Shown in pieces: positions 3 to 20,674 of a stretch of DNA of 21,188 nt; within the stretch, counting starts at the first letter, position 1, and the number at the start of each line of letters is the position of its first letter. The position numbers were made by a program, and so were the translations under genes. Below the pieces are notes generated by a model. That model ran no database searches, had not been told where the DNA came from, and saw only the letters and a list, made by a program, of their open reading frames with translations. Origin of the DNA: a virus. The stretch lies in the IMG/VR virus record IMGVR_UViG_3300032282_005379, positions 1 through 21,188 of that record; one strand, 5' to 3'.

Positions 3-797
3 CAGCAAGCCGCCATGGCCGATGCGGGCTACGCCCAACAGGCCAACCTCGCCAACCAATCGGCCAACCTCAACGCCGCCCAATACAACAGCAGCCAAAA
101 CCTCGCCGCCCAGCAGGCCAACCAATCGGCAAACTACAACGCCAACTACGCGAACCAAAATTTCCTCCAAGGCGTATCTAGCCAGAACTTCAACCAATTT
201 TCGGGACAGCAAAGCATGCTCGGCAGTCTCTACGGCCAGCAGGCCGGTATAGCGCAGAATCAGATGGGCAACTCCTTGGCTCTAGGCCAAGCCAATGTCG
301 GCCTAGACCCGATCACAAGGGCGATGGGAAGCAATTTGCCTGTCGCCACGCAAGGCATAGCTGCCAACATGGTCGGGCAAGCCTACAACTCCAACATGCA
401 GTACGGCAGCGACGTGTATAACACGAACACCAACATGCAGGCTACTAACTATAACTCCTACATGAATAACCAATCTGCACTGCAAGGCGCAAAATACCAA
501 GCGGATGCCGCAAAATCCGCAGGCAATAGCGCGATGCTAGGCTCTGCCATCGGCGGCGCTGGAGCGGCTGTAGGTGGAGCGGCCGCCGCCGCTTGTTGCT
601 GGGTCGCGCGTGCAGCATTCGGCACATCGACATCGCGATGGATGCTCTACCGCCGTGCGATGCTGCGCGGTGCCAGCGACCGCACGATCCGCCTCTACTG
701 CCAACACGGCCCATCTATCGCCACCCGTATCACCACCCCCATCCGCAGATTTATTACCCGATGCTTACTACGTTCGCTGGAAATCGCTTGGAAGTAA
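3..797 (+). CDS. Phage virion-type protein, Gln/Asn/Ala-rich, with C-terminal CCWVAR box (5' partial)
   Basis: The reading frame is open to the left edge of the window, so the start is probably upstream; the first ATG inside is at 15. Numbered from that ATG, residues 1-165 are a low-complexity chain rich in Gln, Asn, Ala and Tyr, as in phage tail-fibre, internal virion or ejection proteins. A Gly/Ala stretch (about 176-193) follows. Then comes Cys194-Cys195-Trp-Val-Ala-Arg and a basic, Trp/Tyr/Arg-containing tail. This tail resembles C-terminal boxes I know from phage proteins (CWVAREVYG type, similar in layout to the bacterial CFIATAAYG box), so I think the frame is real to the stop. The last 37 bases overlap the YcaO gene, so the two are co-transcribed. 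The exact structural role is unknown. The Cys-containing tail is a possible substrate for the neighbouring YcaO-TfuA pair, but that is inference. Confidence 0.75.
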   Translation, partial: QQAAMADAGYAQQANLANQSANLNAAQYNSSQNLAAQQANQSANYNANYANQNFLQGVSSQNFNQFSGQQSMLGSLYGQQAGIAQNQMGNSLALGQANVGLDPITRAMGSNLPVATQGIAANMVGQAYNSNMQYGSDVYNTNTNMQATNYNSYMNNQSALQGAKYQADAAKSAGNSAMLGSAIGGAGAAVGGAAAAACCWVARAAFGTSTSRWMLYRRAMLRGASDRTIRLYCQHGPSIATRITTPIRRFITRCLLRSLEIAWK

Positions 798-2020
798 CCA
801 AGGTCCGCATCGACGGAGCCCAGCGCGCCTGCACACCCGAGCAGACGCTTGCTCGTATGCGCCCACATTGCCACGCCGCAGGCATCACGCGCCTCGCGGA
901 GATCACCGGCCTAGACCGGATCGGGATCGACGTGGCTCAGTGCATCCGACCCGACGCCATCGTGCTCGCGGTGGATAGCGGCAAAGGAGCGACGCCCGCC
1001 GCTGCGAGATGCAGTGCGATGATGGAGGGCTTCGAGCGCCATGTGGGCGAGACCGCTCCTGTGCGCTCGATCATGGCTAGCGCCGCGCAGCTCGGCGACG
1101 CTGCGGAGACACGTCTCCCGCTCCTCTCTGGAGCCGTCGTCGATCCCCACATCCCGCAACCTTGGGTGGAGGTCTATGGATTGCAAAGCGGCAAGGCCCG
1201 CTACGTCCCAGCTTGCGCTATCTCTCTCCAGGCTAGGCACCCTGCCGGACTCCCGCTCGCGGCGACCCCGTGGGCCTCGACCTCGAACGGACTCTCTTCT
1301 GGCAATACCTATGCTGAGGCGGTGGCTGGAGGGCTCTACGAGTGCATCGAGCGAGATGCGACCGCTATCGCTCAGGGTAAAAATGCGGTGGCCTATTCTG
1401 GATCTGCGACTCTCTCCGATGAAATGGGCAGAACGTATGACGGAACTTTTGCCGTATCTCCCCGAGTGAATCTGGACACGGTGACGGACCGTACCGTTCG
1501 CCGTCTCATCCGTACCATCCGCGATGCCGACATCACCCCCGTGCTGCTCGATGTCACCAGCGACATTGGGATCCCCACTTACATCTGCTACCTCATCGAC
1601 TGCGAGAACGGCCACGGGATACATAAAGGCTATGCCTCCCACCTAGATCCTGCTGTGGCTCAATCTCGCGCCCTCACTGAGACCATCCAAGCCCGCGCTA
1701 TCTGGATAGCTGGCAGCCGCGACGACTTCACTCACGAACGCTTCGACCGCATGAAGGCGGCAGATAACTCTGCGGCCATCGCGCAGCTCTACCGCCACCC
1801 GATCACGTCGGCCAACGCTCACGCCGACCGCTCCGGCGATACCTTCGAGGCCGACATAGATACCCTCTGTGCCGCGCTCGATGCCGCAGGCATACCGGAG
1901 CCGCTCATCTATGAGTTCACCCACGACTACCCGTGCTCCGTGGTGCGAGTGATCGTGCCCACTCTGGAGGGGTATAAATTTGACTATTCTCAGCGCGGAC
2001 CACGCGCCCGCCTCGTATGA
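761..2020 (+). CDS. ycaO: YcaO-family ATP-dependent cyclodehydratase/thioamide synthetase (TfuA-associated type)
   Basis: YcaO enzymes use ATP to phosphorylate a peptide-backbone amide. They form azolines from Cys/Ser/Thr or, with TfuA, thioamides using a sulfur donor. The 419-residue product shows the TfuA-linked type N-terminus with GITRLAEITGLDRIG (41-55), then K75 in SGKG, S85 and E89/E92 in the SAMMEGFERH nucleotide/Mg motif, LYECIERD (192-199), and TETIQAR...GSRDD (306-322). The C-terminus is ..GPRARLV and lacks the Pro-rich PxPxP tail of azoline-forming members, which favours thioamidation. I chose ATG 761 because the family homology starts just after it. The frame extends to 593, but that part overlaps the real coding frame of the upstream gene. 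There is no clear Shine-Dalgarno site, so coupling to the upstream gene is likely. It overlaps tfuA by ATGA. No E1-like partner, dehydrogenase or short precursor peptide gene is visible nearby. Family is secure; substrate unknown. Confidence 0.93.
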   Translation: MLTTFAGNRLEVTKVRIDGAQRACTPEQTLARMRPHCHAAGITRLAEITGLDRIGIDVAQCIRPDAIVLAVDSGKGATPAAARCSAMMEGFERHVGETAPVRSIMASAAQLGDAAETRLPLLSGAVVDPHIPQPWVEVYGLQSGKARYVPACAISLQARHPAGLPLAATPWASTSNGLSSGNTYAEAVAGGLYECIERDATAIAQGKNAVAYSGSATLSDEMGRTYDGTFAVSPRVNLDTVTDRTVRRLIRTIRDADITPVLLDVTSDIGIPTYICYLIDCENGHGIHKGYASHLDPAVAQSRALTETIQARAIWIAGSRDDFTHERFDRMKAADNSAAIAQLYRHPITSANAHADRSGDTFEADIDTLCAALDAAGIPEPLIYEFTHDYPCSVVRVIVPTLEGYKFDYSQRGPRARLV

Positions 2021-3042
2021 AAATCTTCCTCGGCCCCACACGCCCCAGCAACATCCCCGCCGATGCCGACCTACGGCCACCCGCCCAGCAAGGCGACATC
2101 GCCGCCGCTGCCCTAGAGGGGTCGGATACGCTCATACTTATCGACGGACTCTTTCACCAAAGCCTCTCTCCCTGGCATAAGGAAATCCTCTTTGCCCTCG
2201 AGCGAGGGTGCCGAGTGATCGGGGCAGGAAGCCTCGGGGCGCTCCGCGCTGTGGAGTGCGCTCGCTACGGAGCCGAGCCTGTCGGAATCATCGCCGGTTG
2301 GTATGCCGACGAGTCTTGCACGGACGATGCCGATGTCGCGCTCGCTCACGGCCACGCCGAAGATGGCTACCGCGCCCTCTCAATCCCCATCGTGAACCTC
2401 CGCGCCACCGCCGAGTGCCTTGTCGCCGATGGATTATTACCCGCCGCCGAGTTGCCTAGCCTGCTCGCCGCCGCCCGCTCGATCTACTACGTCGAGCGCA
2501 GTTGGCCGCGCCTCCGCCGAGACTTGGGAAGTGTGGCTGATTTGCTCCAAGCAAACTACCGTGACCAGAAGGCGCTCGATGCCGAGGAAGCTATACGCCA
2601 CGCGCAGCACGTCGCCGCTCGCTCCACTTGGGAGGAACCGAAGCATACCCTCAATGCCCACATGCTCGCTCTCCTGGGGAACGATCTGCCGTCCGCTTCC
2701 GGTAGAGAGTATAGCCGATGGACTCACTCTCAACGAGAAATAGCCACAGATGCCGCATTGATTGCCGAACTCGCTCAAGCGGTAGGAATCACGGTGACGC
2801 CTTACGACATCCAAACCGCATCAAGTGCCTTGTGGGATGGGCTCGGAATCCACGAACCAGCCAAGGCCGAGCAGTGGCTATGTGAGCACGGCATCTCCGA
2901 GGGAGTCTGGATGAGCGAGGCGCTCAACGAAGCCATCCGCCGCGCTGCCCGAGCATGGTTGACGAGTACCAGTAATGCCTACGACACCGTGCCCCGCGCC
3001 AAGATTTACCACTCCATTCACAAACAACCCATCACCACCTAA
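2017..3042 (+). CDS. tfuA: TfuA-like protein, YcaO partner
   Basis: TfuA proteins accompany a subset of YcaO enzymes and are linked to sulfur delivery for thioamide formation (archaeal methyl-coenzyme M reductase thioglycine, thioamide RiPPs) and to trifolitoxin production. Family signatures appear in order: QGD (25-27), LIDGLFHQ (41-48), WHKEILFAL (53-61), GAGSLGALRAVE (69-80), the DDADVALAHG acidic segment (103-112) and VNLRATAE (126-133). The remaining ~200 residues are helical and less conserved, with no membrane segment. The total of 341 residues is within the family range. The start codon overlaps the ycaO stop as ATGA, which indicates translational coupling and a shared job. The next gene follows after only 5 bases, so the pair sits within a late/structural phage operon. 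Family assignment is strong; its presence in this phage position is unusual. Confidence 0.92.
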   Translation: MKIFLGPTRPSNIPADADLRPPAQQGDIAAAALEGSDTLILIDGLFHQSLSPWHKEILFALERGCRVIGAGSLGALRAVECARYGAEPVGIIAGWYADESCTDDADVALAHGHAEDGYRALSIPIVNLRATAECLVADGLLPAAELPSLLAAARSIYYVERSWPRLRRDLGSVADLLQANYRDQKALDAEEAIRHAQHVAARSTWEEPKHTLNAHMLALLGNDLPSASGREYSRWTHSQREIATDAALIAELAQAVGITVTPYDIQTASSALWDGLGIHEPAKAEQWLCEHGISEGVWMSEALNEAIRRAARAWLTSTSNAYDTVPRAKIYHSIHKQPITT

Positions 3043-3665: not shown

Positions 3666-6600
3666 ATGGCGCACAACCCCCTTCTGGACATCATCAATGC
3701 TGGCACCTCTACAGAGAGTCAGGGCATAGCGATAGATCAAGCTACTCCGCTGTCTAGCGACCCTCCGGATTGGACTCCATACCCGCAGAACGACATTATT
3801 GGTGAGCTAGATTCAATGGATTTAACTAGAGGGCAAACACCCCAAGATGAAATCCCTGATGCGCCGGAAGAATCTTCTGGGCCAATGCCGCGCCGGAATC
3901 CGCTGCTAGACATAATTAACGGTGGCACTCCTGAGCCTACATTGAGGCGGGAGAATCCCTTGCTTGCGTTCATACGACAGCAAGAGGCCGCCGCCCAGCA
4001 AGAGGCCGCCGCCACGCAGGAAGTGGTAGCGCAGGCAACGACTCCCGATGAGGCGCTGCCCGTCGTGCCAACGAAGCTGGCCAACGCCCTCGGCGTGCTC
4101 GACTACCGCGACCCCGAGGAGGGCGCTCGCCGCTCGCAGGCCGCCGCCCTGGGAGAGATCCTAGGTCTGCCGGAATACGAGAGGGTCCAACTCGGAGCCG
4201 CCCCGACCAATGAGGATGGCACCGTGACCATCCGCCGCGCCCAAGCCGTGAGCCCCGAGGCGAATGCCGCCGCTGCCGTGAAGCTCCAAGAAGACCAAGC
4301 CGCTGCCGCTTCGCGCTACAAAGCCGAGCAAGAATCCCTAGAGCCCTCTTTCTTTGAGAAGATCAAACAACGCTGGAGCCTCGGCCGCGAGCAAGCCGTC
4401 GATGACCAGCTCGCCTACCGCGCGATGACGGGAGAGGTGGACTACGAGAAAGTCAAAGGTCAACTCGACCCATCTACACGCCCGCTCAAGGGTGGCAACT
4501 GGCTCTCCGAAGGCGTGCTCACCGCCTCGCAAATGCTGCCCGCCATGGTCGATGGCATCATCTCTGGCAATAAGCTCGGACTGCAAGGCGCTATGGCTGG
4601 AGGCACCGCCGCCGCTATCGCTGGACAAGTCGGGCCTCAAGTGGTCACGCCCGAAGAGATCGTGACCGTACCCGCTGCCGCCGCTCTCGGCTACACCGCA
4701 GGCACCGCAGCGGGAAGTGCAGAGTATTGGTATAAGCAAGGAGCGGGATCCATGTATCACGAACTCCGCAAGGAGGGGATACCTCATAATGTCGCCAGCA
4801 CGGTCGCCGTCGGATTCGGAGCGCCGTATGCCGCTATCGAGCTTGCCCAAGTCAGCAAGCTCGTCCCTGGGGTGAAGCAAACCGCCGCGCAAGCCGTGGC
4901 CGGTGGCATCAAGTCCCGCCTCACCGCGCTCGCTAAGGAGAAAGGCGTCGAGTATGTCGAGCAGATCGGACAAGAGACCGCTCAAGAACTCCTTAGCATC
5001 TCCGGCGAGAAGCTCGCTGAGTGGTCGGCCGGAGTCACCCCGCCCAAGGATAAAGCCTCGGCGTGGGGTCGGATCGCAAATACCATCCAGCAAACGGCGA
5101 CATCCATCCCTTTCCTCATGGCCCCCAAGGGAGCCCTCGATACCTACCAGACCGTGCGTGGCAACGAGCAAACGCCACCCGCAGCGCCACCCGCCCAATC
5201 TCCAGAGCAAGCCCCCGCCGAAGTCCCTCAAAACTTCACCCCCATTTCCAGCCCTGCCGCCGCGCAGCCAGCTACCCGCCCGAGATCCCTCGGCGAAGTC
5301 CGCGCCCCACAGATCGCCCTCGACCAAGCCGCCGTGGATGAAGCCTTCGGCTCCCCATTTGCACCGCCGCCCGTGGTATCAAATGATACCTTCGCCCCGC
5401 CCGCGCCCGCTCCGGTGAACGCCGCATTACCAACGGATGCTCTCCCTACCGAGACACCTGGCGCAACCTATGGCCGCGAAGCAGAAATCTACGACGCCTT
5501 TTCCAATCTTCGCCGCGCCCCGTTTACCGATCTTTCCCCGGCCGCAGTTAACCCACAGGTTAACCCGCCAGTAGTTATGGTTCCACAAACAGAACCAGCA
5601 GACATTCCAAATACGCGAGGCCAAGGCAAACAATTTCACGGAGCAAGAGGGCCGATAGATAACCTCACAGAAGGATACTATAACCCGAACAATATTTACG
5701 GTGGCGAATCAACTTTCTACACCACTGATGCGGTAGATATAGCGGCTGGATATCAGCGCAAAAAACCAAACTCAGTGATTTATCAAGTCGCTGAAAAGGA
5801 GCCTGTTAATTTCTTTGATATGGAAGAAAGAAAGCCTGTAAATCAATGGCTTTCTATGTTTGATGGAATTGGTGAAATCTTTAATTTGTCTTTAGAAAAT
5901 ATATCAAGACAAACTAAGGGCACTCCAAATCTGAGGGAGATTATGGATGAAATGAGGGATGAGTCTTCTTATGAAGGTATAAGTAAAGATGAATTGCAAG
6001 GCACTTTTGGTTCAATAACTTACAGCTTAGAGAATCAAGGCTTTGGCGGAATGACGCATTTAGGCGGATTAAAGACAAAACGCGAGCCGCATAATGTTAA
6101 AATTTATTTTAGGCCATATGAGCAAATAGAGCTAAAGCCAACAGATGTGCGTGGTAATTTGGTTAACCCGCCCGATACCTCCGCTTTCGATCCATCTACG
6201 GCTACCGAGATCACAGAAACTTCCCCCACCGCCTCTGCTGCCCCCACGGTAAGCGCACCAACAGCGCCCGAATCGACGGGCTCACCCGAATTGATCAGCG
6301 GGGAGGGGACTTCTGTTTCAACCAAACTAGCACCGCCGCGCCGTTTTGCACGGTTGTCCTACGATGCCGGATCATTCCCCATCCTGGCAGCACTCCAAGA
6401 ATCTCCCGTGCGCACCAGCGCCAGCGGGAAGGAAGGCGGAGAGAATGATATATGGGACCAGATGCGGCGCACCGGACGCCACTTTGTTGAGACGCACCGC
6501 AAGACCGGAACGCCCTACGATGTCCGCGCTCAAGAGCTATACAATCAGGGCTTACTCTCCGAGCCTACGGCAGATGCCCTAGCCAGCGCCTACCTTGGCG

Positions 6601-9600
6601 AGATCAAATCCTACCGCGCTGTCAAAGATGGAGATCCGCAAGAGCAGGAATACAATAAGCTACAAAAGCAATACGATACCTTCGCGAAGACGGCCATCGC
6701 GCCGCCCAAATCCAAGCAATCCAACCTCCAGCCCATATCCAGCTCCGACCTCCAAGTGGGGGATAAAGTCAAGATCGGCGACGAGTGGATGCACGTCAAA
6801 GGCATCGACCCCGATACCTTCTCAATGTCGCTCCAAGACGGAACAAAGTTCGGTCTTCAAACCGTGGAGGACGGCACGCAAATGTGGGTGCAGGAAACGG
6901 AACTCGCCGCCCCTGCACAGGATGACCCCTTTTCCTTCCTGGGTGAGACGGACACTCCCCCCGCCGCACCACAGCAGGGAGACCCATTCTCCGGCAATCT
7001 ATTTACGCCAACCGAGATGCCATTCAGCCTCGACCGTCCGCTGGAGGATGACAACTTAAAGCGCCAACGCGAAGCCAATGAAGCCAAGCGCAGCCAGGCT
7101 ATCTACGACGAGGCACAGAAGGGGCAGCAAGGATTAGACTTTCAAGAGCCAGCTCCGCGCCCGTTCTCCGACCTTATGGCAGAGAACATGAAGCGCAAAG
7201 GCGAGGCGGGCTACATCGACCTCGGCGTGGTGCAAGATTTTGGGCATAGTGTTTATCAGGCGGGGATGGATTTTGCCGCATGGTCGGGCCGCATGGTGCA
7301 GAAGTTCGGGGATACCATCCGCGATGTCCTCTCTTCTCTCTGGCACGTTGTCTCCGGCGGGCAATACCTGCCCCAAGCCCGCGAGCGTGGCAGTGTAAAC
7401 ATTTCTCCTGGCACCGGCCCCAAGCCCCGCAAGTTCACGCAATCTGTGCAAGCCGCCGAAGGCGTCATGCCGGAGGTGAAAGCGCAGCTTAATTCTTTTG
7501 AATACGATCCGGTCACTAATGCCGAGACCGTGGCTCAAGCCCGCGCTGGCATAGATGCCGCAGGGAGCATGGATGCCGCTCTCACTGGACTCATGGGGAA
7601 GACCGCCGCGCCAGCATGGCAACCCTCAGCCGTGGACTACGCGACCGGCATGGAACTCATGTCGCAACTCCAAAACCGAGGCCGACATGAGGACGCCGGA
7701 GCTATCGCAAATATGATGGCGACCCGCTCCACCGACCAAGGCCGCGCGATCCAAGCCCTCTCTATGATCTCCCGCCTCGGGCCGCAGGGCATCGAGATCT
7801 TCGCCCAACGCCAGCTCACGCAGGCCGCCACCTCGGGCAAGACAGACAAAGTGCGCACGACCATCCAAGCGAAGATCGACGAGGCCGACCAACTCCGCAC
7901 CGAAGTCACCAAGCTACGCCACGATGCCACGACCGCCGCCATCGTCGGCAATAAAGACATCATTAAAGGCGAACTCCCCGCCGGAGCTAACCCCGTGAAG
8001 GTGAACCTCGCCATACGCGACGCCATCATGGGCTCGCCTACGCCGCTGGCGGCCGAGGCCGCTACCCATACCATCCTCACGGCCGAAGGGCTCTCGGATA
8101 AGGGGGCCGTGCGTATCAGCAAGAGCGTCGTTAAAGATTTCCTCAAGACCACACAGGATGCTCGCGCTAAAGTCCTCCAAGACCTACAAGCTGCCGCTGA
8201 GAATGACCGACGCTTAGATAAATCCAAACTCGGCGGGCTCATGCGCCTCAACCGCGAGGGCAAGCTCACCGATGCCAGCCTGCACGCAGGCATGGCGAAG
8301 ATGCTCGGCATCCCACACTGGGGAGCGGAGCAAAGCGCCAAGGTGCAACGCATCCTCGCGCAGCGCGACAAGGCTACCGATCCGCGTATCAAGCTTGTCA
8401 AGGGGGCCGAAGCCCTCGATGTCGTTTACCGTGAGTTCATGCCGCCTGGATTACTGGCTAAGATAGATACCTACCAGACGCTCTCGATGCTGCTCAATAC
8501 GAAGACCGTCACCCGCAACGTGCTGGGCAACTCCATCATGTTCGGCGGCGATCTGGTGGCCGACTCCTTAGCTGTGCCGATGGATGCTGTGATGGGCCTC
8601 GCGACCGGAGAGCGCACGCGCACGGGATTATCCCTCGGTCAACGTATCGTGGGCCTCGGAGCCGGAGTCGGAGATGTGAAGGCGGGCTATGACTTTGCTC
8701 GCTCGGAAGGGCGTGGCGTCCTCCCAAGCCTAGCCAAAGGGGTCGATACCCTCGTGCGCCTCGGCCGCTTGCAATCCAGCGGCAAATATGACTCGGCTCA
8801 GATCAGCGCCTACAGCGGCGGCACATTCACGGCCCCTGTCCTGCGTCACCTCGAATCCACCCTCGGAGCCGTGCTCTCCATAGCCGACCGAGGATTCTAC
8901 GAAAGCGCCTTCCGATCCAGCCTCGACAACCGCATGAAGGCGGCTCGCGCCAACGGGACGCCCATGCTCGCGCCCGATGCGGACATGATCACCGCTGCCC
9001 GCATGGACGCCGCCCGCGCCGTTTACCAGGATGACAATATCACCAGCCGCACGCTGGGAGGGATGCGCCGTGCGCTTAATGTCAATCAACGCTGGGGGCT
9101 CGGATCCATGCTTTTCAAATTCACTCAAGTCCCAGGCTCTATCGCTACCCGTGCGGTGGAGTTTTCCCCGCTGGGCTTCATCGGTACCGCCTACGAAACC
9201 CTCGCCCCGCTCCTAAGTAAGAATAAGGAGTTCGACCAAAAGGCATTTGTGGATTCCTTCACCCGCGCCCTTGTCGGCACGACCGGCCTCGTCGCCACCG
9301 GCTACTGGCTCGCGCAACTCGGCATCATCTCCGCAGGCAGCGACGCAAAGGATGAGGACAAGCGCAACCTCGACAAAGCCCGTGGATGGGGGAACTACAA
9401 ACTCAACGCCACCGCGCTCAAGCGTGCGCTCATGACCGGCAACTTCTGGACCCGCCAGCCACAACAGAAAGGCGACATGGTGGTGAGCTACGATTGGGCG
9501 CAACCCCTCTCCATCGGCGTCGCCATGGGAGCCTACGCCCGAGAGAACCAAGACGCCGTGCGCGAAGACGTCCTGCGCGGCAAGAAGCAAAGCCTCCTCG

Positions 9601-10382
9601 CCACCGGCATGAACTGGCTCGCCTACGGAGCCGGAGCCGCCACCGGTGCCATGAACTCCCTCGTCGAGCAACCTCTCCTCACGGGCATCAACTCTTTCAT
9701 GCGAAACGCTGGCTACGATGGACTCATCGGGGCCGTGGTGAAGACCGCCGCCGATATACCTGGCAGCTTCGTCCCATCCTCCGCCCGCCAGTGGATGCAG
9801 CTCGACGACAACTCCTCCCGCGAGGCCCGCGACAGCTCGCCCTTCCGTCAATACGTCAACGAACTCAAGTCCCAACTCCCTGTGCTCAGTAAATCTCTGC
9901 CGCAGAAATACGACATCGCTGGAAAGCCCGTCGAACGCTGGGCGCAAGATAGCAACACGATCTTCAACGTCATGTTCAATCCAAGCATGGTCACTTACAT
10001 CAAAGGCTCTCCCGTGCTCACCGAGATGGGAGAGATCTACCGCCGCACCGCCGATGGCCGCGCCGTAGCCAACCAGGTCAAGCCCGAGTTCACGCTCGAA
10101 GGCGTCAAGGTCCGCCTCACGGATGAAGAGATCAGCGCCATGCAAAAGGATATGGGCGCACTCTCCGTCGCCACCATCGAGAAATATGTGCTCGATGATC
10201 CCCGCTACGCCAAAGCCTCATGGGACGTGAAAGCTAAAGCCTTCACTCGCGCCCTGGAGAAAGCCGCCACCGCATCCAAGTATCGCATCCTCCTCGCCCG
10301 TCCCGACCTCAAGGAACGTGCCCGCCAAGACTTCATCCAAACCCGAGATGCCCGATCCAAACAACAATCCCTCATGGAATAA
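3666..10382 (+). CDS. Giant polyvalent-type phage protein (2238 aa), putative ejected/internal virion protein with ART-like domain
   Basis: This single uninterrupted frame has several parts. Residues 1-104 carry three NPLLDIIN-like motifs. An Ala/Glu-rich linker and helical part follow, then a Gly/Ala-rich hydrophobic segment (about 305-360) and a Pro/Ala linker (about 500-640). An ADP-ribosyltransferase-like domain lies at about 655-835: H658 in FHGARG, STFYTTD at 682-688, Y696, then GFGGMTHLGG and a closing beta-strand HNVKIYFRPYEQIEL. Next are a helical block (about 900-1010), an SH3-like beta segment with GDKVKIGDEW (about 1032-1080) and a YIDLG..FAAWSGRMVQKFGDTI helix (1183-1226). A TRNVLGNSIMF..GERTRTG segment (about 1610-1655) and a membrane-like helix LVGTTGLVATGYWLAQLGI (about 1868-1888) complete it. 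The C-terminal half resembles giant proteins of podoviruses and mobile elements, which are thought to enter the cell with the DNA. No lytic transglycosylase motif was found. Operon position supports a late/virion role. Confidence 0.85.
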   Translation: MAHNPLLDIINAGTSTESQGIAIDQATPLSSDPPDWTPYPQNDIIGELDSMDLTRGQTPQDEIPDAPEESSGPMPRRNPLLDIINGGTPEPTLRRENPLLAFIRQQEAAAQQEAAATQEVVAQATTPDEALPVVPTKLANALGVLDYRDPEEGARRSQAAALGEILGLPEYERVQLGAAPTNEDGTVTIRRAQAVSPEANAAAAVKLQEDQAAAASRYKAEQESLEPSFFEKIKQRWSLGREQAVDDQLAYRAMTGEVDYEKVKGQLDPSTRPLKGGNWLSEGVLTASQMLPAMVDGIISGNKLGLQGAMAGGTAAAIAGQVGPQVVTPEEIVTVPAAAALGYTAGTAAGSAEYWYKQGAGSMYHELRKEGIPHNVASTVAVGFGAPYAAIELAQVSKLVPGVKQTAAQAVAGGIKSRLTALAKEKGVEYVEQIGQETAQELLSISGEKLAEWSAGVTPPKDKASAWGRIANTIQQTATSIPFLMAPKGALDTYQTVRGNEQTPPAAPPAQSPEQAPAEVPQNFTPISSPAAAQPATRPRSLGEVRAPQIALDQAAVDEAFGSPFAPPPVVSNDTFAPPAPAPVNAALPTDALPTETPGATYGREAEIYDAFSNLRRAPFTDLSPAAVNPQVNPPVVMVPQTEPADIPNTRGQGKQFHGARGPIDNLTEGYYNPNNIYGGESTFYTTDAVDIAAGYQRKKPNSVIYQVAEKEPVNFFDMEERKPVNQWLSMFDGIGEIFNLSLENISRQTKGTPNLREIMDEMRDESSYEGISKDELQGTFGSITYSLENQGFGGMTHLGGLKTKREPHNVKIYFRPYEQIELKPTDVRGNLVNPPDTSAFDPSTATEITETSPTASAAPTVSAPTAPESTGSPELISGEGTSVSTKLAPPRRFARLSYDAGSFPILAALQESPVRTSASGKEGGENDIWDQMRRTGRHFVETHRKTGTPYDVRAQELYNQGLLSEPTADALASAYLGEIKSYRAVKDGDPQEQEYNKLQKQYDTFAKTAIAPPKSKQSNLQPISSSDLQVGDKVKIGDEWMHVKGIDPDTFSMSLQDGTKFGLQTVEDGTQMWVQETELAAPAQDDPFSFLGETDTPPAAPQQGDPFSGNLFTPTEMPFSLDRPLEDDNLKRQREANEAKRSQAIYDEAQKGQQGLDFQEPAPRPFSDLMAENMKRKGEAGYIDLGVVQDFGHSVYQAGMDFAAWSGRMVQKFGDTIRDVLSSLWHVVSGGQYLPQARERGSVNISPGTGPKPRKFTQSVQAAEGVMPEVKAQLNSFEYDPVTNAETVAQARAGIDAAGSMDAALTGLMGKTAAPAWQPSAVDYATGMELMSQLQNRGRHEDAGAIANMMATRSTDQGRAIQALSMISRLGPQGIEIFAQRQLTQAATSGKTDKVRTTIQAKIDEADQLRTEVTKLRHDATTAAIVGNKDIIKGELPAGANPVKVNLAIRDAIMGSPTPLAAEAATHTILTAEGLSDKGAVRISKSVVKDFLKTTQDARAKVLQDLQAAAENDRRLDKSKLGGLMRLNREGKLTDASLHAGMAKMLGIPHWGAEQSAKVQRILAQRDKATDPRIKLVKGAEALDVVYREFMPPGLLAKIDTYQTLSMLLNTKTVTRNVLGNSIMFGGDLVADSLAVPMDAVMGLATGERTRTGLSLGQRIVGLGAGVGDVKAGYDFARSEGRGVLPSLAKGVDTLVRLGRLQSSGKYDSAQISAYSGGTFTAPVLRHLESTLGAVLSIADRGFYESAFRSSLDNRMKAARANGTPMLAPDADMITAARMDAARAVYQDDNITSRTLGGMRRALNVNQRWGLGSMLFKFTQVPGSIATRAVEFSPLGFIGTAYETLAPLLSKNKEFDQKAFVDSFTRALVGTTGLVATGYWLAQLGIISAGSDAKDEDKRNLDKARGWGNYKLNATALKRALMTGNFWTRQPQQKGDMVVSYDWAQPLSIGVAMGAYARENQDAVREDVLRGKKQSLLATGMNWLAYGAGAATGAMNSLVEQPLLTGINSFMRNAGYDGLIGAVVKTAADIPGSFVPSSARQWMQLDDNSSREARDSSPFRQYVNELKSQLPVLSKSLPQKYDIAGKPVERWAQDSNTIFNVMFNPSMVTYIKGSPVLTEMGEIYRRTADGRAVANQVKPEFTLEGVKVRLTDEEISAMQKDMGALSVATIEKYVLDDPRYAKASWDVKAKAFTRALEKAATASKYRILLARPDLKERARQDFIQTRDARSKQQSLME
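3672..3977 (+). repeat. Three NPLLDIIN-like peptide repeats at the N-terminus of the giant protein
   Basis: Copies are at residues 3-11 (HNPLLDIIN), 77-85 (RNPLLDIIN) and 96-104 (ENPLLAFIR). The first two also share a following (A/G)GT. In the first two copies seven of the eight NPLLDIIN codons differ only at synonymous bases, so the peptide, not the DNA, appears to be conserved. Function unknown; a docking or packaging signal is possible. Confidence 0.75.
5558..6172 (+). other. AT-rich inserted cassette encoding the ART-like domain, bounded by a 12-bp direct repeat
   Basis: GGTTAACCCGCC occurs at 5558-5569 and again at 6161-6172. The copies are 603 bp apart, an exact multiple of three, so loss of one copy plus the interior would keep the frame. 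Between them the sequence is far more AT-rich: 21 of 60 bases are G or C at 5821-5880, against 43 of 60 at 5161-5220. It encodes the ART-like domain. Pro/Ala-rich linkers flank it on both sides. Confidence 0.7.
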
Positions 10383-10442: not shown

Positions 10443-11543
10443 TTACAGCGGCTTCGGACGCTTGATGAGATTGTGGTAATGGTTAAAGGTCGTCTGAATA
10501 TCTCGGTGCCGGAGTAACCGGCTGGCAACCTCGATCCCGTCACGTCCCGCGATCTGCGCCCCGTATTCTTTGCGAAGATTGTAAGCGCCCTTCTGCCCGT
10601 CAGGAATGAACTGCCGCACAAACTCATTGATCCCGTAGTGCGCGAGGTCGTAAGCCTCCGTCTTGCTAGACCTGGGGATGACAAACTCGCCATCACCACC
10701 AAGCGCAGCCTTGATGAGCTTAAGCATCCGTGACCGCATCGGCACGCGACCGCTCCGGCCCTTTGGCTTCCAATCATCGCGCTTAATGAGCACAAGGTCG
10801 GCGGTCCCGTCAGTCTGCCAATCCACCCAGCTCCACTTCAAATGCTCCACCTCCTCATTGCGCAGCCCCGCCTTGCGCATGATCCAGTAAATCGCCCACA
10901 CCCTCGCGTTCTGCTTGCGCAGCCGGTGGCCCGCCGCTTTATCCATCCGTGCCAAAGTCAATCGGTCGATAGGCTGATACCCCTCCGTGCTCGTCGATCC
11001 GCCCGACACTGCCCAAAAATCTGTGAGATCCGGCAGCTTGAGTTTTTCAAATAGGTAAAATCTTTTCCGCGCGACAACGCTCTTAATCGTTTGAACGTCC
11101 GTATGGATGCCCGACTCGGAGCGGTCCGCTGCTTTCTGAGTGTCGATCCATGCCCGCAGCGCGGCGGCCGTCAATACCAGGTGCGTGCTTTGTTCCTCCC
11201 AATCTCTCCTCTTCGTCACCTCCCGCACATAAACCGCAAACCGGCTCAGGCCTTTCGTCCTCGAAGCCTCGGGACCGTGAACGCGATAAATATCCGCCAC
11301 CTCGCCACACTTCGCAAAGCCTGGGCGCTTCACCGCTGCCGCTATCTGGTGTTCATCCTTCGAGCGCAGCGCCGCCGCCAATTTCTCCGCAGCCCGCATC
11401 GCCTCCTTGCGTCCGGCCTCGCTGTGCTTAGTGACGCCCGTGGAGAGTTTTTTTGTGCGCCCGTCAATCTGGACACGGTAATACCAGCCCGCCCGTCCCT
11501 CATCATTCCTCCAGAAAACCGATACTTCATTGTGGCGTCTCAT
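10443..11543 (-). CDS. int: Tyrosine recombinase, phage integrase
   Basis: This enzyme catalyses site-specific recombination between phage attP and host attB. The 366-residue product has an N-terminal beta-rich AP2/arm-binding-like region (about 5-40, with WYYRVQIDGRTKKLSTGV), a core-binding helical domain (about 95-175) and a catalytic domain. The catalytic residues are R228 in GLRNEEV, K261 in KPKGRSG, R324 in YNLRKEYG, H346 in LLRHRD and the nucleophile Y356 in TTFNHYHN. The usual His of the HxxR box is Tyr (Y321), a tolerated variation in several subfamilies. The start ATG lies 3 bases from two 12-mer repeats, and a candidate promoter overlaps those repeats. The adjacent tRNA-derived attP core strongly supports function. 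Transcription is toward the giant gene (convergent). Confidence 0.95.
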   Translation of the reverse strand: MRRHNEVSVFWRNDEGRAGWYYRVQIDGRTKKLSTGVTKHSEAGRKEAMRAAEKLAAALRSKDEHQIAAAVKRPGFAKCGEVADIYRVHGPEASRTKGLSRFAVYVREVTKRRDWEEQSTHLVLTAAALRAWIDTQKAADRSESGIHTDVQTIKSVVARKRFYLFEKLKLPDLTDFWAVSGGSTSTEGYQPIDRLTLARMDKAAGHRLRKQNARVWAIYWIMRKAGLRNEEVEHLKWSWVDWQTDGTADLVLIKRDDWKPKGRSGRVPMRSRMLKLIKAALGGDGEFVIPRSSKTEAYDLAHYGINEFVRQFIPDGQKGAYNLRKEYGAQIAGRDGIEVASRLLRHRDIQTTFNHYHNLIKRPKPL

Positions 11544-13387: not shown

Positions 13388-13840
13388 TTAAATTAGTCCT
13401 GCTTCTTTGAAGGAGAAGAACGGGGTTTCTGTGTGGCTGGATCCAACAATAATATGATCAATCAATGAGATTTGCAGCATTCCGGCTGCTTCCCTTAAGT
13501 TTTTGGTGACTCTCATATCTGCCTGGCTCGGGGTTGCGTCCCCGCTGGGGTGATTGTGCATGATCGCGATGGCGTAAGCATTCATAGCTATTGCGGGCCG
13601 GAATACGTCCCTAGGATGGCACATGCACTCTGACAATGTGCCTATGCTTACTATGCTGTGAGCTACGGTGCGGAGTTTTGCATTGAGGATCAGAACAATC
13701 ATTTGCTCTTTTTCTTCGCTGAACCACGGGGCCGATGTGATGGAGTTTTCCCAATACTCTAATGATTTTTCTGGTCTGTCACAAATGAGTCCTGGGCATT
13801 CGCGGACAAATTGAATTTTAACTTCGTTTGATGTTTCCAT
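13388..13840 (-). CDS. RadC-like JAB/MPN-domain protein
   Basis: This 150-residue protein carries the RadC/JAMM-type metal site: E45 in EEKEQMIVLILNAK, then HNHPSGDATPSQAD with H95, H97 and D108 as the expected zinc ligands. This fits the single MPN domain without the helix-hairpin-helix part of full RadC, as in mobile-element forms. The family is associated with phages, islands and anti-defence regions, but its reaction is unproven (possible DNA-related hydrolase). A strong Shine-Dalgarno AAGGAGG precedes ATG by 8 bases, the best ribosome site in this cluster. It overlaps the stop of the upstream membrane-protein gene, indicating coupling. Confidence 0.88.
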   Translation of the reverse strand: METSNEVKIQFVRECPGLICDRPEKSLEYWENSITSAPWFSEEKEQMIVLILNAKLRTVAHSIVSIGTLSECMCHPRDVFRPAIAMNAYAIAIMHNHPSGDATPSQADMRVTKNLREAAGMLQISLIDHIIVGSSHTETPFFSFKEAGLI

Positions 13841-14714: not shown

Positions 14715-14975
14715 CTACCCCGTGGCGTGTTTTTTCTTTTGCGGAATCGGCCCAACTTGTAAAGGTTGGGCTTGGACTTTTCCCTGGATGATACGAGTGA
14801 GGCCAAAAATAGCGCCTTCGGTGAGGGCGGCTGTGATTGCTTCTCGCGCCCACGCTCCACGACTAATCCCGCCGGATGCCGCGAGGCGGTCAATCTCGGC
14901 GACTTGGGCATCTGTCAGCGTGGTTGAAACGCTGATTTTGCCATCGCCTGCGCCGTGGCTTTTTTTTGCTTTCAC
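14715..14975 (-). CDS. Ribbon-helix-helix DNA-binding protein, candidate lysogeny repressor
   Basis: The 86-residue product has the RHH pattern: beta strand KISVSTTLT (about 13-21), helix DAQVAEIDRLAAS, turn GGISRG and helix AWAREAITAALTEG. A basic/Gln-rich tail follows. RHH proteins bind as dimers of dimers to short repeated half-sites. The start is GTG at 14975, 6 bases after a -10 box (TATATT), so the mRNA is probably leaderless like lambda cI from PRM. It is divergent from a second RHH gene, as in the phage P22 arc/mnt immunity region. The intergenic region holds a perfect palindrome and repeated half-sites that fit operators. Which of the two proteins maintains lysogeny cannot be told from sequence. 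Confidence 0.8.
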   Translation of the reverse strand: MKAKKSHGAGDGKISVSTTLTDAQVAEIDRLAASGGISRGAWAREAITAALTEGAIFGLTRIIQGKVQAQPLQVGPIPQKKKHATG

Positions 14976-14981
14976 GGGATC

Positions 14982-15009
14982 AATATAAGCGGTCGGAAAT
15001 CATTTTCAA
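14982..15009 (-). promoter_or_regulatory. Leftward repressor promoter
   Basis: TTGAAA (15009-15004) and TATATT (14987-14982) on the minus strand are spaced by 16 bases. The transcript start would fall at the GTG of the RHH repressor (14975). Confidence 0.55.
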
Positions 15010-15018
15010 TTTTTTTTA

Positions 15019-15046
15019 TTGCTTTCCAATTGGAAATGAATATTTA
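15019..15046 (+). promoter_or_regulatory. Rightward promoter of the early operon
   Basis: TTGCTT (15019-15024) and TATTTA (15041-15046) are spaced by 16 bases. The palindrome TTTCCAATTGGAAA overlaps its -35 and spacer, so binding there should repress it. A leader of roughly 27 bases would precede ATG 15080. Confidence 0.45.
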
Positions 15047-15059
15047 TGAATGGAAATGA
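15023..15059. promoter_or_regulatory. Operator: 14-bp palindrome plus repeated TGGAAATGA half-sites
   Basis: TTTCCAATTGGAAA (15023-15036) is a perfect palindrome. TGGAAATGA occurs at 15031-15039 and 15051-15059 (20 bp apart), and a related CGGAAATCA at 14994-15002. Repeated half-sites between divergent RHH genes are as expected for their operators. Confidence 0.65.
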
Positions 15060-15079
15060 GTGGAACACCCTACTTGACC

Positions 15080-15226
15080 ATGAATAAAACAATACAAACG
15101 CAGATACCAAAAGAGCTGGATCAAATCATCTCAGCTATTGCAAAAAGCCAGATGGTGAGCCGCGCGGCGGTCGTCCGCCAGTTGATTGTAAAGGCGCTTG
15201 ATAAAACGAGAGAGGGCCAGATATGA
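15080..15226 (+). CDS. Small ribbon-helix-helix regulator (48 aa), first gene of the rightward operon
   Basis: Codons from ATG 15080 give MNKTIQTQIPKELDQIISAI, then AKSQMVSRAAVVRQLIVKAL and the tail DKTREGQI: a minimal RHH domain with beta strand TIQTQIPKE, helix LDQIISAIAKS, turn MVSRA and helix AVVRQLIVKAL. The size is close to the Arc repressor. It is transcribed away from the larger RHH gene, with operator-like repeats between. It is too short for many gene callers. Its stop overlaps the next start (ATGA). It probably acts as the lytic-side regulator of the switch, but that is inference. Confidence 0.75.
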   Translation: MNKTIQTQIPKELDQIISAIAKSQMVSRAAVVRQLIVKALDKTREGQI

Positions 15227-15309
15227 GCTCTGTTTTTTATAGCCTGGCGACGGGATGCCTGAGCGGGGCGGTTTTTTATTTTTTTGCGAAAATGGAGGGC
15301 TGGAAATGA
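15223..15309 (+). CDS. Very small membrane peptide (28 aa)
   Basis: ATG at 15223 overlaps the RHH stop. The product MSSVFYSLATGCLSGAVFYF continues FAKMEGWK, giving one short hydrophobic, Phe/Tyr-rich helix. It ends in ATGA with the next gene. No family recognised. Support comes from the ATGA chain and the membrane-like composition. Confidence 0.45.
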   Translation: MSSVFYSLATGCLSGAVFYFFAKMEGWK

Positions 15310-15452: not shown

Positions 15453-15565
15453 GCGCGGATGATTTTTTCCGGTGCTCGGGATATTTTTTCGATTTTTTGC
15501 AGATGGTCGCACCGTTGGTCGTCCTCCTTTGGGTGACGGATCGAATCCTGGAGGGCGGGAAATGA
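15449..15565 (+). CDS. Very small membrane peptide (38 aa)
   Basis: ATG 15449 overlaps the previous stop. The product has an acidic/aromatic N-terminus (MSADDFFRCSGYFFDFLQ), a hydrophobic helix MVAPLVVLLWV and the tail TDRILEGGK. It overlaps the next start as ATGA. No family recognised. Confidence 0.45.
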   Translation: MSADDFFRCSGYFFDFLQMVAPLVVLLWVTDRILEGGK

Positions 15566-15789
15566 TCGAGCAACATTATTCAGCCAGGGAAATTGCGGCG
15601 TTGCTCAAGGTCGATCACTCCACGGTGACGCGTAAAATATCCTCCGGCGAGATGAAGGGGGTCAAAATCGGCAAGCGGGTCATTGTTCCCGAGTCGGAGG
15701 TAGAGCGGTTTCTTGACCTCAACAGACTCGGGAGGCCTGCGCCTCTTCCTGTCCGGCGAGGGGTCCGGCCTTTGATCGCCTCGCTTTAA
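15562..15789 (+). CDS. Excisionase/MerR-type helix-turn-helix protein (75 aa)
   Basis: The product has the compact winged-helix DNA-binding unit YSAREIAALLKVDHSTVTRKISSGEMKGVKIGKRVIVPESEVERFL (about 6-51). This is the excisionase-family pattern: helix, turn, recognition helix, and a beta wing with KIGKR. The track to 15472 in the same frame overlaps other genes; ATG 15562 makes the last ATGA overlap of the chain. In a temperate phage it may serve as excisionase (Xis/Cox-like) or as an early regulator; sequence alone does not decide. Confidence 0.75.
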   Translation: MIEQHYSAREIAALLKVDHSTVTRKISSGEMKGVKIGKRVIVPESEVERFLDLNRLGRPAPLPVRRGVRPLIASL

Positions 15790-15814: not shown

Positions 15815-16639
15815 ATGGACTCCCCCTTAAGTCGATTTGATGCGCATGAAACTGCGGCGCCTTTTTTATTTTCGGCGGCGGAAATAGGTGCTGAGAAGCT
15901 CGAAGCCACTGGGGAGTTCAGCGGCGAGCGGTTGCTTGCTCGCAGGCCGGAGGTTTATCGGGCGATATTATCCATGAGTGCCGAGGGTTTGAGCGTGTCG
16001 GCTATGGCTCGGGCGTTCGGGGTCAGCCGGAATACGATTGCAGCCGTGCAGGATCGTGAAGGATTTTCTATAGAGCAACATAAAAAGGAGTTGCTTCGGA
16101 ATGTGCGCACTGCGGCGCGGCTCTCGGTCGAGAGGGTCGTGGAGTTGGTGCCTTCTATCAATAGCGCCAAGGATGCGGCCATTGTTGCGGCGGTGATGGT
16201 CGATAAGCTCCAGCTCCTCAGCGGCGAGGCAACGGCCCGAGTCGAACGGGTAGAGGTTAGCCAGGACAAACTCTCGGAGATGCTAGCCGGTCTGCCGGAG
16301 CTCGAGGCCGAGATCGTGCCGGCAACCGGTTCAAGCGGCAGCGGGTCGGAGCAAAAGGGGCGGGCTGCGGCGGGTTGCCTGGGGTTGGATCCGGTGGGAT
16401 TGGGGCGCGCTGGCTCCGGTTCTGATACTCAATCAGATGGTTTGCAGGGTTTACAAGACGTAAGCGCGGGGATGGGGACAACTTCGGGGACGGGTGACGC
16501 TGCGGGTCGGGTCGATCTCGAGGATCTGGCCGCCGACACGGAGGGGGGGAGGGGGTCTGAATTTTTGGCCCCCCCCCCGTCAGCACCCACTGATTTGGGT
16601 GAACGGAAAATTTTTAGCAAAGGAGACCTTAACTCCTAA
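15815..16639 (+). CDS. Helix-turn-helix phage protein with low-complexity tail (274 aa)
   Basis: Residues about 44-82 (RPEVYRAILSMSAEGLSVSA followed by MARAFGVSRNTIAAVQDRE) form a helix-turn-helix of the Hin/transposase-like type. Helical segments follow (about 90-150, with RNVRTAARLSVERVVELVP and AAIVAAVMVDKLQLLSG) that may mediate oligomerisation. Residues 165-250 are Gly/Ser/Asp-rich and low in complexity. I infer a DNA-binding regulator or replication accessory; no named family is certain. The 3' part contains a G7 run and a C10 run (about 16543-16578) and a near-exact copy of the attP-side 12-mer repeat (16474-16491). The start ATG follows a T-rich stretch without a Shine-Dalgarno site. 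Confidence 0.65.
   Translation: MDSPLSRFDAHETAAPFLFSAAEIGAEKLEATGEFSGERLLARRPEVYRAILSMSAEGLSVSAMARAFGVSRNTIAAVQDREGFSIEQHKKELLRNVRTAARLSVERVVELVPSINSAKDAAIVAAVMVDKLQLLSGEATARVERVEVSQDKLSEMLAGLPELEAEIVPATGSSGSGSEQKGRAAAGCLGLDPVGLGRAGSGSDTQSDGLQGLQDVSAGMGTTSGTGDAAGRVDLEDLAADTEGGRGSEFLAPPPSAPTDLGERKIFSKGDLNS
16474..16491 (+). repeat. Distant fourth copy of the attachment-site repeat
   Basis: GGGGACAACTTCGGGGAC differs from 11771-11788 at one base in 18. It lies inside the helix-turn-helix gene, nearly 5 kb from attP. It may be a regulatory or recombination site, or a chance of coding sequence. Confidence 0.45.
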
Positions 16640-17639: not shown

Positions 17640-17803
17640 ACTCGAAGGAGAGGGCGCTTTCTTACGACGATGCCCGCTGTGGCCACCGTGTGGTGATGCG
17701 GCCGAAGATTACGAACAAGGCTCTCACGCGCTGGCTTGCTGGCCGTGAACCGCAAAAAAAGAAACTGACGGAGAAAAAAGAACAAAATGAGCAACTGGAT
17801 TAA
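17636..17803 (+). CDS. Hypothetical basic phage protein (55 aa)
   Basis: ATG 17636 overlaps the exonuclease stop. The product MNSKERALSYDDARCGHRVV, MRPKITNKALTRWLAGREPQ and a Lys/Glu/Gln-rich tail is small, basic and soluble, possibly nucleic-acid binding. A longer frame to 17549 overlaps the exonuclease gene and is not needed. It overlaps the replication gene by 17 bases. Confidence 0.55.
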   Translation: MNSKERALSYDDARCGHRVVMRPKITNKALTRWLAGREPQKKKLTEKKEQNEQLD

Positions 17804-18692
17804 AATGCGGAGCAATCTTTGGGATGATCCTCGGATCGCCAGAATTTGCGACCTGACCCACAAGCGGGAGGCCGAGGTGATTGGTGGGCTGTATTGGATA
17901 TGGTCGATGGCCGATGAGCAGAGCACGGATGGACAGCTTGATGGGCTTTCGCTTGGAGCTATCGACAGGAAGACGGGGGTTAAGGGATTGGGAGCGGCTC
18001 TTGCAAAGGTTGGTTGGATTACGGAAGTTGAAGATGGAGTTGAGATTGCACGCTTCGATGAACATAATGGAGCGTCTGCAAAAAGACGGGCGGAGATGGC
18101 GAAGGCGTCATCAAAATATAGAGCCTCGTCATCAAAGCGTCATCACTCTGATATGACGGATGGATCACGGGAATATGACCTAGATAAGAATAGAATAGAT
18201 AATACCCCTATAGTCCCCAATGGGGACATGGTGTTGGAGGGTGAGCGGGTTGATTTACCGGCACCGGAGGATCAGATCGTTTCGAGATTTCGTGAGCTTT
18301 TCCACATTCGACCGACTTCGACTCTGGATGCCTCCACGACCAAGGCTTACCAGAAAAATAAAAAAGCGGCGGCGGAGTTGAGCGATGAGGATTGGCGGGC
18401 GCTGGAGTGGGTGTATCGCCAACAGGAGGGCGTGGCGGCGACTTACAGGCGTAAGGACTTGGCTACGTTGCTAAATAACCTCACTTCGGAGGTGCAGCGG
18501 GCCTACGATTGGGCGGGTCGCTCGGGGGTGAGCTTTGCCCTGGTGAGGGTGGCGGTGGAGTCGGAGCCGGAGGGGTGGGCGTCGATCATCACGGATGAAG
18601 ACCCGAGCTATAATTGCATTTCGTGGGCGGCTTTGCCGGATTCGATGAAGCGTTATGTGCGGGAAAAAATCCGCCAACGGCATGAATCCTAA
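17787..18692 (+). CDS. Phage replication-initiator type protein
   Basis: The N-terminus (KMRSNLWDDPRIARICDLTHKRE, then GGLYWIWSMADEQSTDGQLDGL and IDRKTGVKGLGAALAKVGWI) is the winged-helix part common in phage replication proteins of the O/DnaD-like group. A hydrophilic linker (about 95-160) and a helical C-terminal domain (about 165-300) follow, with YQKNKKAAAELSDEDWRALE and ..RRKDLATLLNNL. Such proteins bind the origin and recruit the DnaB helicase encoded 1.5 kb downstream. The gene overlaps its two neighbours, so it is expressed as part of the early operon. No origin repeats were recognised inside it. Confidence 0.8.
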   Translation: MSNWIKMRSNLWDDPRIARICDLTHKREAEVIGGLYWIWSMADEQSTDGQLDGLSLGAIDRKTGVKGLGAALAKVGWITEVEDGVEIARFDEHNGASAKRRAEMAKASSKYRASSSKRHHSDMTDGSREYDLDKNRIDNTPIVPNGDMVLEGERVDLPAPEDQIVSRFRELFHIRPTSTLDASTTKAYQKNKKAAAELSDEDWRALEWVYRQQEGVAATYRRKDLATLLNNLTSEVQRAYDWAGRSGVSFALVRVAVESEPEGWASIITDEDPSYNCISWAALPDSMKRYVREKIRQRHES

Positions 18693-19101: not shown

Positions 19102-19307
19102 GCGTGTCAATGAATTGGGTGGATGCCGATAAACAAAAGCCGGATGATGGCGAGACCGTCATCATTCACATGCAGGGGGGGGAAGTCTGGACGGGTTTCC
19201 TTGACGGGGATGTCTGGCGGAATGTGTCGGGCGCACGGATTCACGAGGAGGAGCCGGTATTGCACTGGATGCCGCTCCCTAACCCTCCAATCGGAGGACA
19301 TCTATGA
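19098..19307 (+). CDS. DUF551-like small phage protein (69 aa)
   Basis: The sequence NWVDADKQKPDDGETVIIHM ... VWTGFLDGDVWRNVSGARIH ... PVLHWMPLPNPP matches the DUF551 pattern: 'W.....P.dg..V' at the start and 'V.HWMPLP.PP' at the end. These proteins are common in phages and mobile elements; function unknown. It overlaps the genes on both sides by ATGA. Confidence 0.75.
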   Translation: MSVSMNWVDADKQKPDDGETVIIHMQGGEVWTGFLDGDVWRNVSGARIHEEEPVLHWMPLPNPPIGGHL

Positions 19308-20674
19308 GCGCGAGTTCTTTACCAGAGGCTCCGGTGTGCGAGCGGGCGGTGATCGGGGCGGCGTTGCAGGAGGGGCGGGTGGCGGATAGTGTGCTGGAGG
19401 TGCTGCGGCCGGAGCATCTCGCTTGGCCTGCGAATAAGGAGATCCTTTCGCTGATCTCGGATATGCGGCAACAGGCGTTGCCGGTGGATTTTATCTTGGT
19501 GACGACGGCGTTGGATAAGGCGGGAGTCCTCGAAGCGGTGGGCGGGAGTGCCTACCTATCGGAGCTGGCGACGGATATGGGGACGGTGGCAAATTGGCAG
19601 TTCTACGCAGAGGAGGTGATCGACTCATGGAAGCGTCGGGAGATGCTGGCTGCGGCGATGAGGTTGGCGCAGGAGGCCCGTGATCCGGCTTTGAGAGTCG
19701 AGGACGCGCAGGAGCGGTGCGAGCAGGTGCTATACGGCTTACGGGAGAGTATCGGGAAGGAGAATGTGGTGGCGCATTGCAAACGGGCCGTGCTGGAGGC
19801 CGTTGAGCATATCGAGAAGGTGTATCAGAATCGCGGACAGACGGTGGGGCTGGAGAGTGGCATTCACGATCTGGACCGCTCGACGGGGGGATTCCTCGGC
19901 GGGCAGATGATTGTGATCGCGGCGCGTCCGGCTTGCGGGAAGTCGGCGCTCGGGATGCAGATGGCGCTCCATGCGGCGATGAAGGTGCAAGTGCCGGTGC
20001 TGGTCTTCTCGGTGGAGATGCCGTCGATGGAGCTGATGACTCGGGCGATATGCTCGGAGGCGGGCATTGACCTCCAGCGGGTGCGGGATGGATTTTTGCC
20101 TGCGACGGCGCTGGGGAATGTGTCTTCGGCGGCGAGCCGCTTGAGCAAGGCGAACTTGTATCTGGACGATACGCCTGGCTTGACGGTGGCGCAGTTTCGC
20201 TCACGGGCGCGGCGGGCTAAGGCGGCGCACGGCATTAAGCTCATTGTGGTGGATTATCTGCAATTCATGCACGGGTCGTCGAAGCGGGCGGGGGAAAGCA
20301 GGGCGCTGGAGGTAAGCGAGATCTCGAAGGCGATCAAGACAACGGCGAAGGAACTCAGTATTCCCATCATTGCCCTAGCGCAGCTCAACCGCGATGCGGA
20401 TGAGCAGAGCAAGCCGAAGCTCTCGAATCTCCGCGAGTCGGGCAGCATCGAGCAGGATGCCGATACGGTGATGCTCATTCACCGCCTAGACAAAAATAAA
20501 AAACGGGCGGGCGAGGATGAGGAGCCTATGGATCACAATACGTTGCTGATCCTTGCAAAACAAAGAAACGGCCCGACGCCGGAGATCAAGCTCAACTTCA
20601 TCGGCGAGCACACGACCTTCCGAAATGTGACGGAGAAGGCGTATAGCAACAACAAGAACGAAAGGCAGAAATAA
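19304..20674 (+). CDS. dnaB: Replicative DNA helicase, DnaB type
   Basis: DnaB hexamers unwind DNA ahead of the replication fork. The N-terminal helical domain (about 8-110) is followed by the RecA-like core. The core shows Walker A ARPACGKS (207-214, K213), catalytic E238 in VFSVEM, Walker B D317 in IVVDYLQ, IALAQLNRD (357-364), RESGSIEQDADTVMLIHR and the arginine finger KQR at 419-421. No intein interrupts it. Length (456) is normal for the family. With the O-like protein and the exonuclease upstream it forms the phage replication module. The start overlaps the DUF551-like stop (ATGA). Confidence 0.95.
   Translation: MSASSLPEAPVCERAVIGAALQEGRVADSVLEVLRPEHLAWPANKEILSLISDMRQQALPVDFILVTTALDKAGVLEAVGGSAYLSELATDMGTVANWQFYAEEVIDSWKRREMLAAAMRLAQEARDPALRVEDAQERCEQVLYGLRESIGKENVVAHCKRAVLEAVEHIEKVYQNRGQTVGLESGIHDLDRSTGGFLGGQMIVIAARPACGKSALGMQMALHAAMKVQVPVLVFSVEMPSMELMTRAICSEAGIDLQRVRDGFLPATALGNVSSAASRLSKANLYLDDTPGLTVAQFRSRARRAKAAHGIKLIVVDYLQFMHGSSKRAGESRALEVSEISKAIKTTAKELSIPIIALAQLNRDADEQSKPKLSNLRESGSIEQDADTVMLIHRLDKNKKRAGEDEEPMDHNTLLILAKQRNGPTPEIKLNFIGEHTTFRNVTEKAYSNNKNERQK

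Follow-up and report, generated by a model that had tools for sequence, protein, structure and literature searches.

Textbook lysogeny switches are built from HTH repressors, which are commonly self-cleaving for SOS induction. Ribbon-helix-helix (RHH) proteins also occur in lysis/lysogeny systems. The immI region of phage P22 (Arc/Mnt) is described as dispensable and secondary, acting through Ant on a separate c2/cro switch (PMC11016777, PMC7549136). In some Pf prophages, an Arc-family gene replaces repressor C (12 of 182; PMC7549136), and the lysis/lysogeny system of Bacillus SP-beta includes YosL, an RHH protein of the Arc type (PMC10516654). In the literature searched, outside which most subscription journals lay, we found neither a direct precedent for an RHH protein as prophage master repressor nor a paper on a tailed phage having a divergent RHH pair as its primary switch.

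The DNA analyzed here is a 21,188-bp stretch of a virus record (the window). A minus-strand RHH gene (14715–14975; GTG start, 86 amino acids) and an Arc-sized plus-strand RHH gene (15080–15226; 48 amino acids) diverge from a control region of 104 bp (14976–15079). Both ORFs are present as given in a preliminary description of this DNA, as are the palindrome, repeats, and −10 box placed between them. The divergent genes form the boundary between a minus-strand arm, which ends in a tyrosine integrase gene (10443–11543, minus strand), and a plus-strand early operon. The suggestion that the pair heads this operon was borne out: the plus-strand RHH gene comes first, followed by an HTH_17 excisionase-like gene (15562–15789), an exonuclease gene, and, 3' of the switch, genes for replication initiation (17787–18692) and a DnaB-like helicase (19304–20674). 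Elsewhere in the window, a single ORF of 2238 amino acids (3666–10382, plus strand) directly precedes the integrase gene, and the minus-strand arm encodes, close to the switch, a RadC-type JAB protein (13388–13840, minus strand; Pfam 123.6 bits). Among the late genes is a peptide-thioamidation-type pair (755–3042, plus strand), in which YcaO (Pfam 207 bits) precedes a TfuA-like gene (116 bits); YcaO is present in six of 15 relatives.

The layout is shared with the lambdoid immC region (cI/cro), which likewise lies between an integrase arm and an early operon, has divergent repressors and a shared operator region, and is exchanged as immunity types among related phages. Unlike in immC, both proteins of the window locus are RHH proteins, and neither an HTH repressor nor an S24 autoproteolysis domain was detected. 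Like P22 immI, the window pair comprises two small divergent RHH repressors with operators between them and takes part in lysis/lysogeny control, at least as we interpret it; however, it heads the early replication operon, and a c2/cro-like gene went undetected in its relatives. The likeness to immI drawn in the preliminary description thus holds for fold and divergence but not for role, since immI is dispensable and acts on c2/cro (PMC11016777). Pf prophages similarly have an RHH gene where the usual repressor is missing, but these are filamentous phages in which, in the accessible portion of the report, the Arc-family gene stands alone and no divergent RHH pair is described (PMC7549136). SP-beta differs in that its master repressor, MrpR, is not an RHH protein. 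The locus is best read as having an immC-like role built from immI-type parts.

The claim that the larger protein has an RHH fold is upheld by its Pfam RHH_1 score (21.8 bits against a cut-off of 20.5) and by its AlphaFold model, in which a strand segment is followed by helices at residues 22–34 and 39–52. The RHH domain spans approximately residues 15–52 of the model, and the remaining tail is of low confidence. Orthologues could be aligned from 17 other contigs, and 12 of 18 match RHH_1 at E-values up to 0.1. Foldseek returned CopG, PutA, and antitoxin RHH proteins for this model, all with nonsignificant E-values. The window copy of the plus-strand protein scores 15.7 bits against RHH_1, below the cut-off, but all 20 orthologues match at E-values up to 0.1. 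Its model (pLDDT 84.5; helices at residues 11–24 and 28–46) has Arc, CopG, and ORF56 as its top Foldseek matches, with a best E-value of 0.14, in agreement with the earlier assignment of this protein too as RHH. When profiles were run against the sequences of solved structures, all matches were weak, and the evidence for the fold therefore comes from the models and Pfam. Alternative start codons for the plus-strand gene at 15050 and 15056 were rejected, as in several orthologues the upstream frame stays open for no more than a few codons. On the best reading, we propose that the minus-strand protein is the immunity repressor, with a cI-like role, and that the plus-strand protein is Cro-like, the first gene product of the early operon.

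The control region contains a perfect 14-bp palindrome, TTTCCAATTGGAAA (15023–15036), located inside a candidate early promoter. The sequence TGGAAATGA occurs on the plus strand at 15031–15039, overlapping the right half of the palindrome, again 20 bp downstream at 15051–15059, and a third time at 15301. These three copies compare with 0.25 expected in the window, and one of 100 shuffles reached as many. A copy with one mismatch, TGAAAATGA (15000–15008, minus strand), lies within the minus-strand promoter, and a T8/A8 tract (15010–15017) separates the −35 element of that promoter from the operator. Taken alone, the palindrome was equalled in 25 of 500 dinucleotide shuffles, marginally above chance, and a single promoter-like site in the region is not unusual (shuffle mean 0.6). 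Relatives were therefore compared.

Both the neighboring HTH ORF and the replication gene served as baits, giving about 60 viral loci. Profiles of both RHH proteins then identified 23 contigs (window included) in which the same divergent pair precedes the bait gene; we call this pair type I. Some relative contigs are fragments. One locus, L003, was discarded as a false match of the RHH query to an HNH-type ORF. A tblastn search of 50,697 phage records with the minus-strand RHH protein (the L005 orthologue), the plus-strand RHH protein, and the HTH ORF gave no match, and hence there was no isolate to use.

The gap between the RHH genes is 103–107 bp in 22 of the 23 type I contigs and 83 bp in the other (L022). 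In subgroups A–F, the best inverted repeat in the gap starts 47–50 nt from the minus-strand start codon, and its sequence differs by subgroup: TTTCCAATTGGAAA in A, TTCTAATTAGAA in B, TTCTCACGAGAA in C, TTCTATACAGAATCTGTATAGAA in D, CTTATAAGAATTCTTATAAG in E, and TCTTAAAAGAATTCTTTTAAGA in F. The subgroup C repeat is imperfect and by itself no better than shuffles, while those of D, E, and F were equalled in 0, 0, and 3 of 500 shuffles, respectively. All are near a 12-bp unit, TTCY-NNNN-RGAA (described post hoc), of which the window palindrome is the group A form; the unit is doubled in C–F at a spacing of 11–12 bp, which is known for Arc. The T8/A8 tract is conserved in type I and also seen in type III contigs (described below), and in a 42.2-kb relative the site TTCTNNNNAGAA occurs a single time, at the switch. 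It is through conservation across relatives that the features of the control region exceed chance.

The minus-strand promoter, TTGAAA-16-TATATT, has its −35 element at 15004–15009, a position conserved in relatives, and its −10 element at 14982–14987, ending 6 nt before the GTG. This makes it a candidate for a leaderless start, as proposed in the preliminary description. In subgroups A–D, a −35 element, a spacer of 16–17 nt, and a −10-like hexamer located 5–6 nt before the start codon place the predicted transcript start at, or no more than 1–2 nt from, that codon. The hexamer is poor in subgroups E and F, reads TACATT approximately 7 nt before the start in type III, and was not found before the type II minus-strand gene. 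The missing Shine-Dalgarno sequence was rejected as evidence, being uninformative because several other window genes also lack one, and GTG, with which the group A gene begins, is not the codon favored in leaderless translation. Leaderless translation of the minus-strand gene is plausible, and the comparison supports it in part. The λ cI gene is translated leaderless, and the window repressor may be likewise. Facing the other way, a candidate early promoter, TTGCTT-16-TATTTA (15019–15046, plus strand), overlaps the operator; it is weak and was picked by eye, with no clear sigma-70 match, and most relatives have TTGnnn in the corresponding position.

Operator sequence tracks the minus-strand and not the plus-strand RHH protein. 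The more alike the minus-strand RHH domains, the more alike the operators (r = 0.80; partial r = 0.73 after allowing for the plus-strand protein), with none of 2000 permutations as high in a test that ignores shared ancestry, as compared with a partial r of 0.17 (p = 0.04) for the plus-strand protein. Because shared ancestry is ignored in this test, the stronger argument is a contrast among three loci. L010 and L033 have identical plus-strand proteins but different operators. The minus-strand domains of L033 and L017 share 90% identity, but L033 has RANVSTT in place of RAVVSTT, which puts Asn at a β-strand position occupied by Val in L017, and L033 carries the operator of L005 and L016, whose β strand reads MANVSTT. 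By alignment with CopG, we take this residue to be a DNA-contacting position of the strand. The same data bear on the possibility that the roles are reversed, with the plus-strand protein as palindrome-binding repressor and the minus-strand protein as its antagonist. The plus-strand protein does match Arc better when folds are searched, and it is the more conserved of the two, but the covariation of operator with minus-strand protein and the identical plus-strand proteins of L010 and L033 make such a reversal quite improbable.

Approximately 17 further contigs have, in place of the type I pair, one of two other pairs that cannot be aligned with it and are mostly RHH-like. The type II pair consists of a minus-strand protein (KTKKIDVRLD...) above the RHH_1 cut-off and a weakly RHH-like plus-strand protein (KEIKLSARLPE...). 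In the type III pair (minus, ...QFSVRLPEEV...; plus, MKTFSIRLP...), both proteins are near but below the RHH_1 threshold, and one plus-strand protein exceeds the HicB cut-off. The genes flanking the exchanged pairs are homologous (31–90% identical), with the lipoprotein, 48-amino acid ORF, HTH ORF, exonuclease, and replication genes beside the switch mostly still recognizable across types. In a quick tree built from the HTH ORF, eight changes of cassette type are needed, against a minimum of two for three types. A regulator cassette is thus exchanged between homologous flanks, which is how immunity regions behave, and these comparisons suggest that phages most likely swap the RHH pair as a single, interchangeable immunity unit.

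Other variation was noted around these loci. Relatives carry one of two versions of the HTH_17 gene (window 15562–15789; 89% versus 36–57% identity), apparently independently of RHH type. In type III loci, the early region has an additional gene, whose product contains the phospholipase-D-like motif HAKVI...SANLRSSDNIEQ (L030, 5208–5864; L069, 9148–9864; L068, 9082–9861). Minus-strand proteins with unalignable RHH domains have C-terminal tails in common (for example, ...SRQAG, ...SHPAG, and ...KKKHATG), encoded at the 3' ends of their genes (14715–14800 in the window; also L010, L018, L019, L036, and others). These shared tails imply either an exchange junction inside the ORF or a role of the tail itself, for which a degradation tag is one guess. 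A GGTGGCTGGTGGCT minisatellite adjoins the 3' end of the minus-strand RHH gene in L005 (~5489–5560), L012, and L014 (both ~1–150).

An integrase match was found in all 15 longer relatives (33.6–43.2 kb), five of them over the Pfam cut-off. None of the 15 has an HTH_3 (CI/Cro) domain over the cut-off or an S24 peptidase, as found in λ-type cI; the search of whole relatives covered these two families, and a repressor with a different fold might have escaped it. Sub-threshold HTH_3 matches were rejected as evidence of a repressor, falling mostly in a conserved ORF of 250–310 amino acids that matches 15815–16639 of the window. The left-arm ORFs of the window that were tested against PHROGs gave no repressor match. 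In the wider family, L069 lies in a 76-kb contig of a Verrucomicrobia metagenome-assembled genome, where phage genes begin at ~44.5 kb and have genes for SMC, a glycosyltransferase, and NAGPA to their left. Neither an integrase gene nor a tRNA (ARAGORN) was found at the prophage edge. As its phage region adjoins host genes, members of the wider family integrate.

These observations bear on two further explanations. The pair might have a secondary role like that of immI, adjusting an antirepressor or some other repressor encoded elsewhere in the phage, as Arc/Mnt do in P22. Its fold and divergent layout are the same as those of Arc/Mnt, and P22 immI also steers the lysis/lysogeny balance indirectly (PMC11016777). 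Against this, the pair heads an operon with replication genes, neither HTH_3 over the cut-off nor S24 was found in the 15 relatives of 33–43 kb, and no ant-like gene lies 3' of the plus-strand RHH gene, where small ORFs and the HTH_17, HTH ORF, exonuclease, and replication genes are found instead; the sole ant-type match downstream is the HTH_17 gene itself, at an E-value of 0.03. We regard such a role as unlikely. A toxin-antitoxin, partition, or copy-control unit is very improbable: no toxin-like partner gene was seen, the RHH genes diverge at the boundary of lysogeny and early genes, and an integrated relative exists, even though RHH proteins often act as antitoxins or as copy controllers of the CopG type and the Foldseek matches include antitoxins.

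We therefore favor, with a probability of about three in four, a reading in which the locus serves a temperate Verrucomicrobia phage as its primary immunity region, with a minus-strand RHH repressor and a Cro-like plus-strand RHH protein as a swappable pair. The earlier suggestion of a switch made of two RHH proteins in place of a cI/cro pair accords with the conserved divergence, the operator covariation, the replacement of cassettes, the lack of HTH_3 matches over the cut-off and of S24 matches, the integrase matches in 15 of 15 relatives, and the relative that borders on host genes, all of which are sequence comparisons; an RHH repressor with no autoproteolysis domain counts against it. In the mechanism we propose, the minus-strand protein would be made in lysogens from a promoter that perhaps yields leaderless mRNA, and would bind one or two tandem 12-bp TTCY-NNNN-RGAA operators (11–12 bp apart if two). 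As these overlap the early rightward promoter, binding would shut off the plus-strand RHH gene and the excisionase-like and replication genes. The plus-strand protein, as counterpart of Cro, would be the first product upon infection or induction, and would repress the minus-strand gene and its own operon from a different site. The RHH pair carried would constitute the immunity type of the phage, with whole pairs exchanged by recombination. Operator binding, repression, switch direction, leaderless translation, and the role of the plus-strand protein are elements of this scheme that we infer.

A broader proposition, which we consider evenly poised, is that a whole family of tailed temperate phages has a divergent RHH pair as its only primary switch, with specificity set by one or two β-strand residues and induction by a route other than RecA-stimulated self-cleavage. 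Val or Asn in the strand would then go with the operator TTCTATACAGAA or TTCTAATTAGAA, respectively. A switch made solely of RHH proteins would raise the question of how the prophage is induced, and the natural RHH pairs are material for testing operator choice by strand residues. The locus would also offer a handle on lysogeny in Verrucomicrobia, a subject on which we found little literature. With two proteins of ~50–100 residues as the only detectable switch, it would be a minimal, swappable natural toggle.
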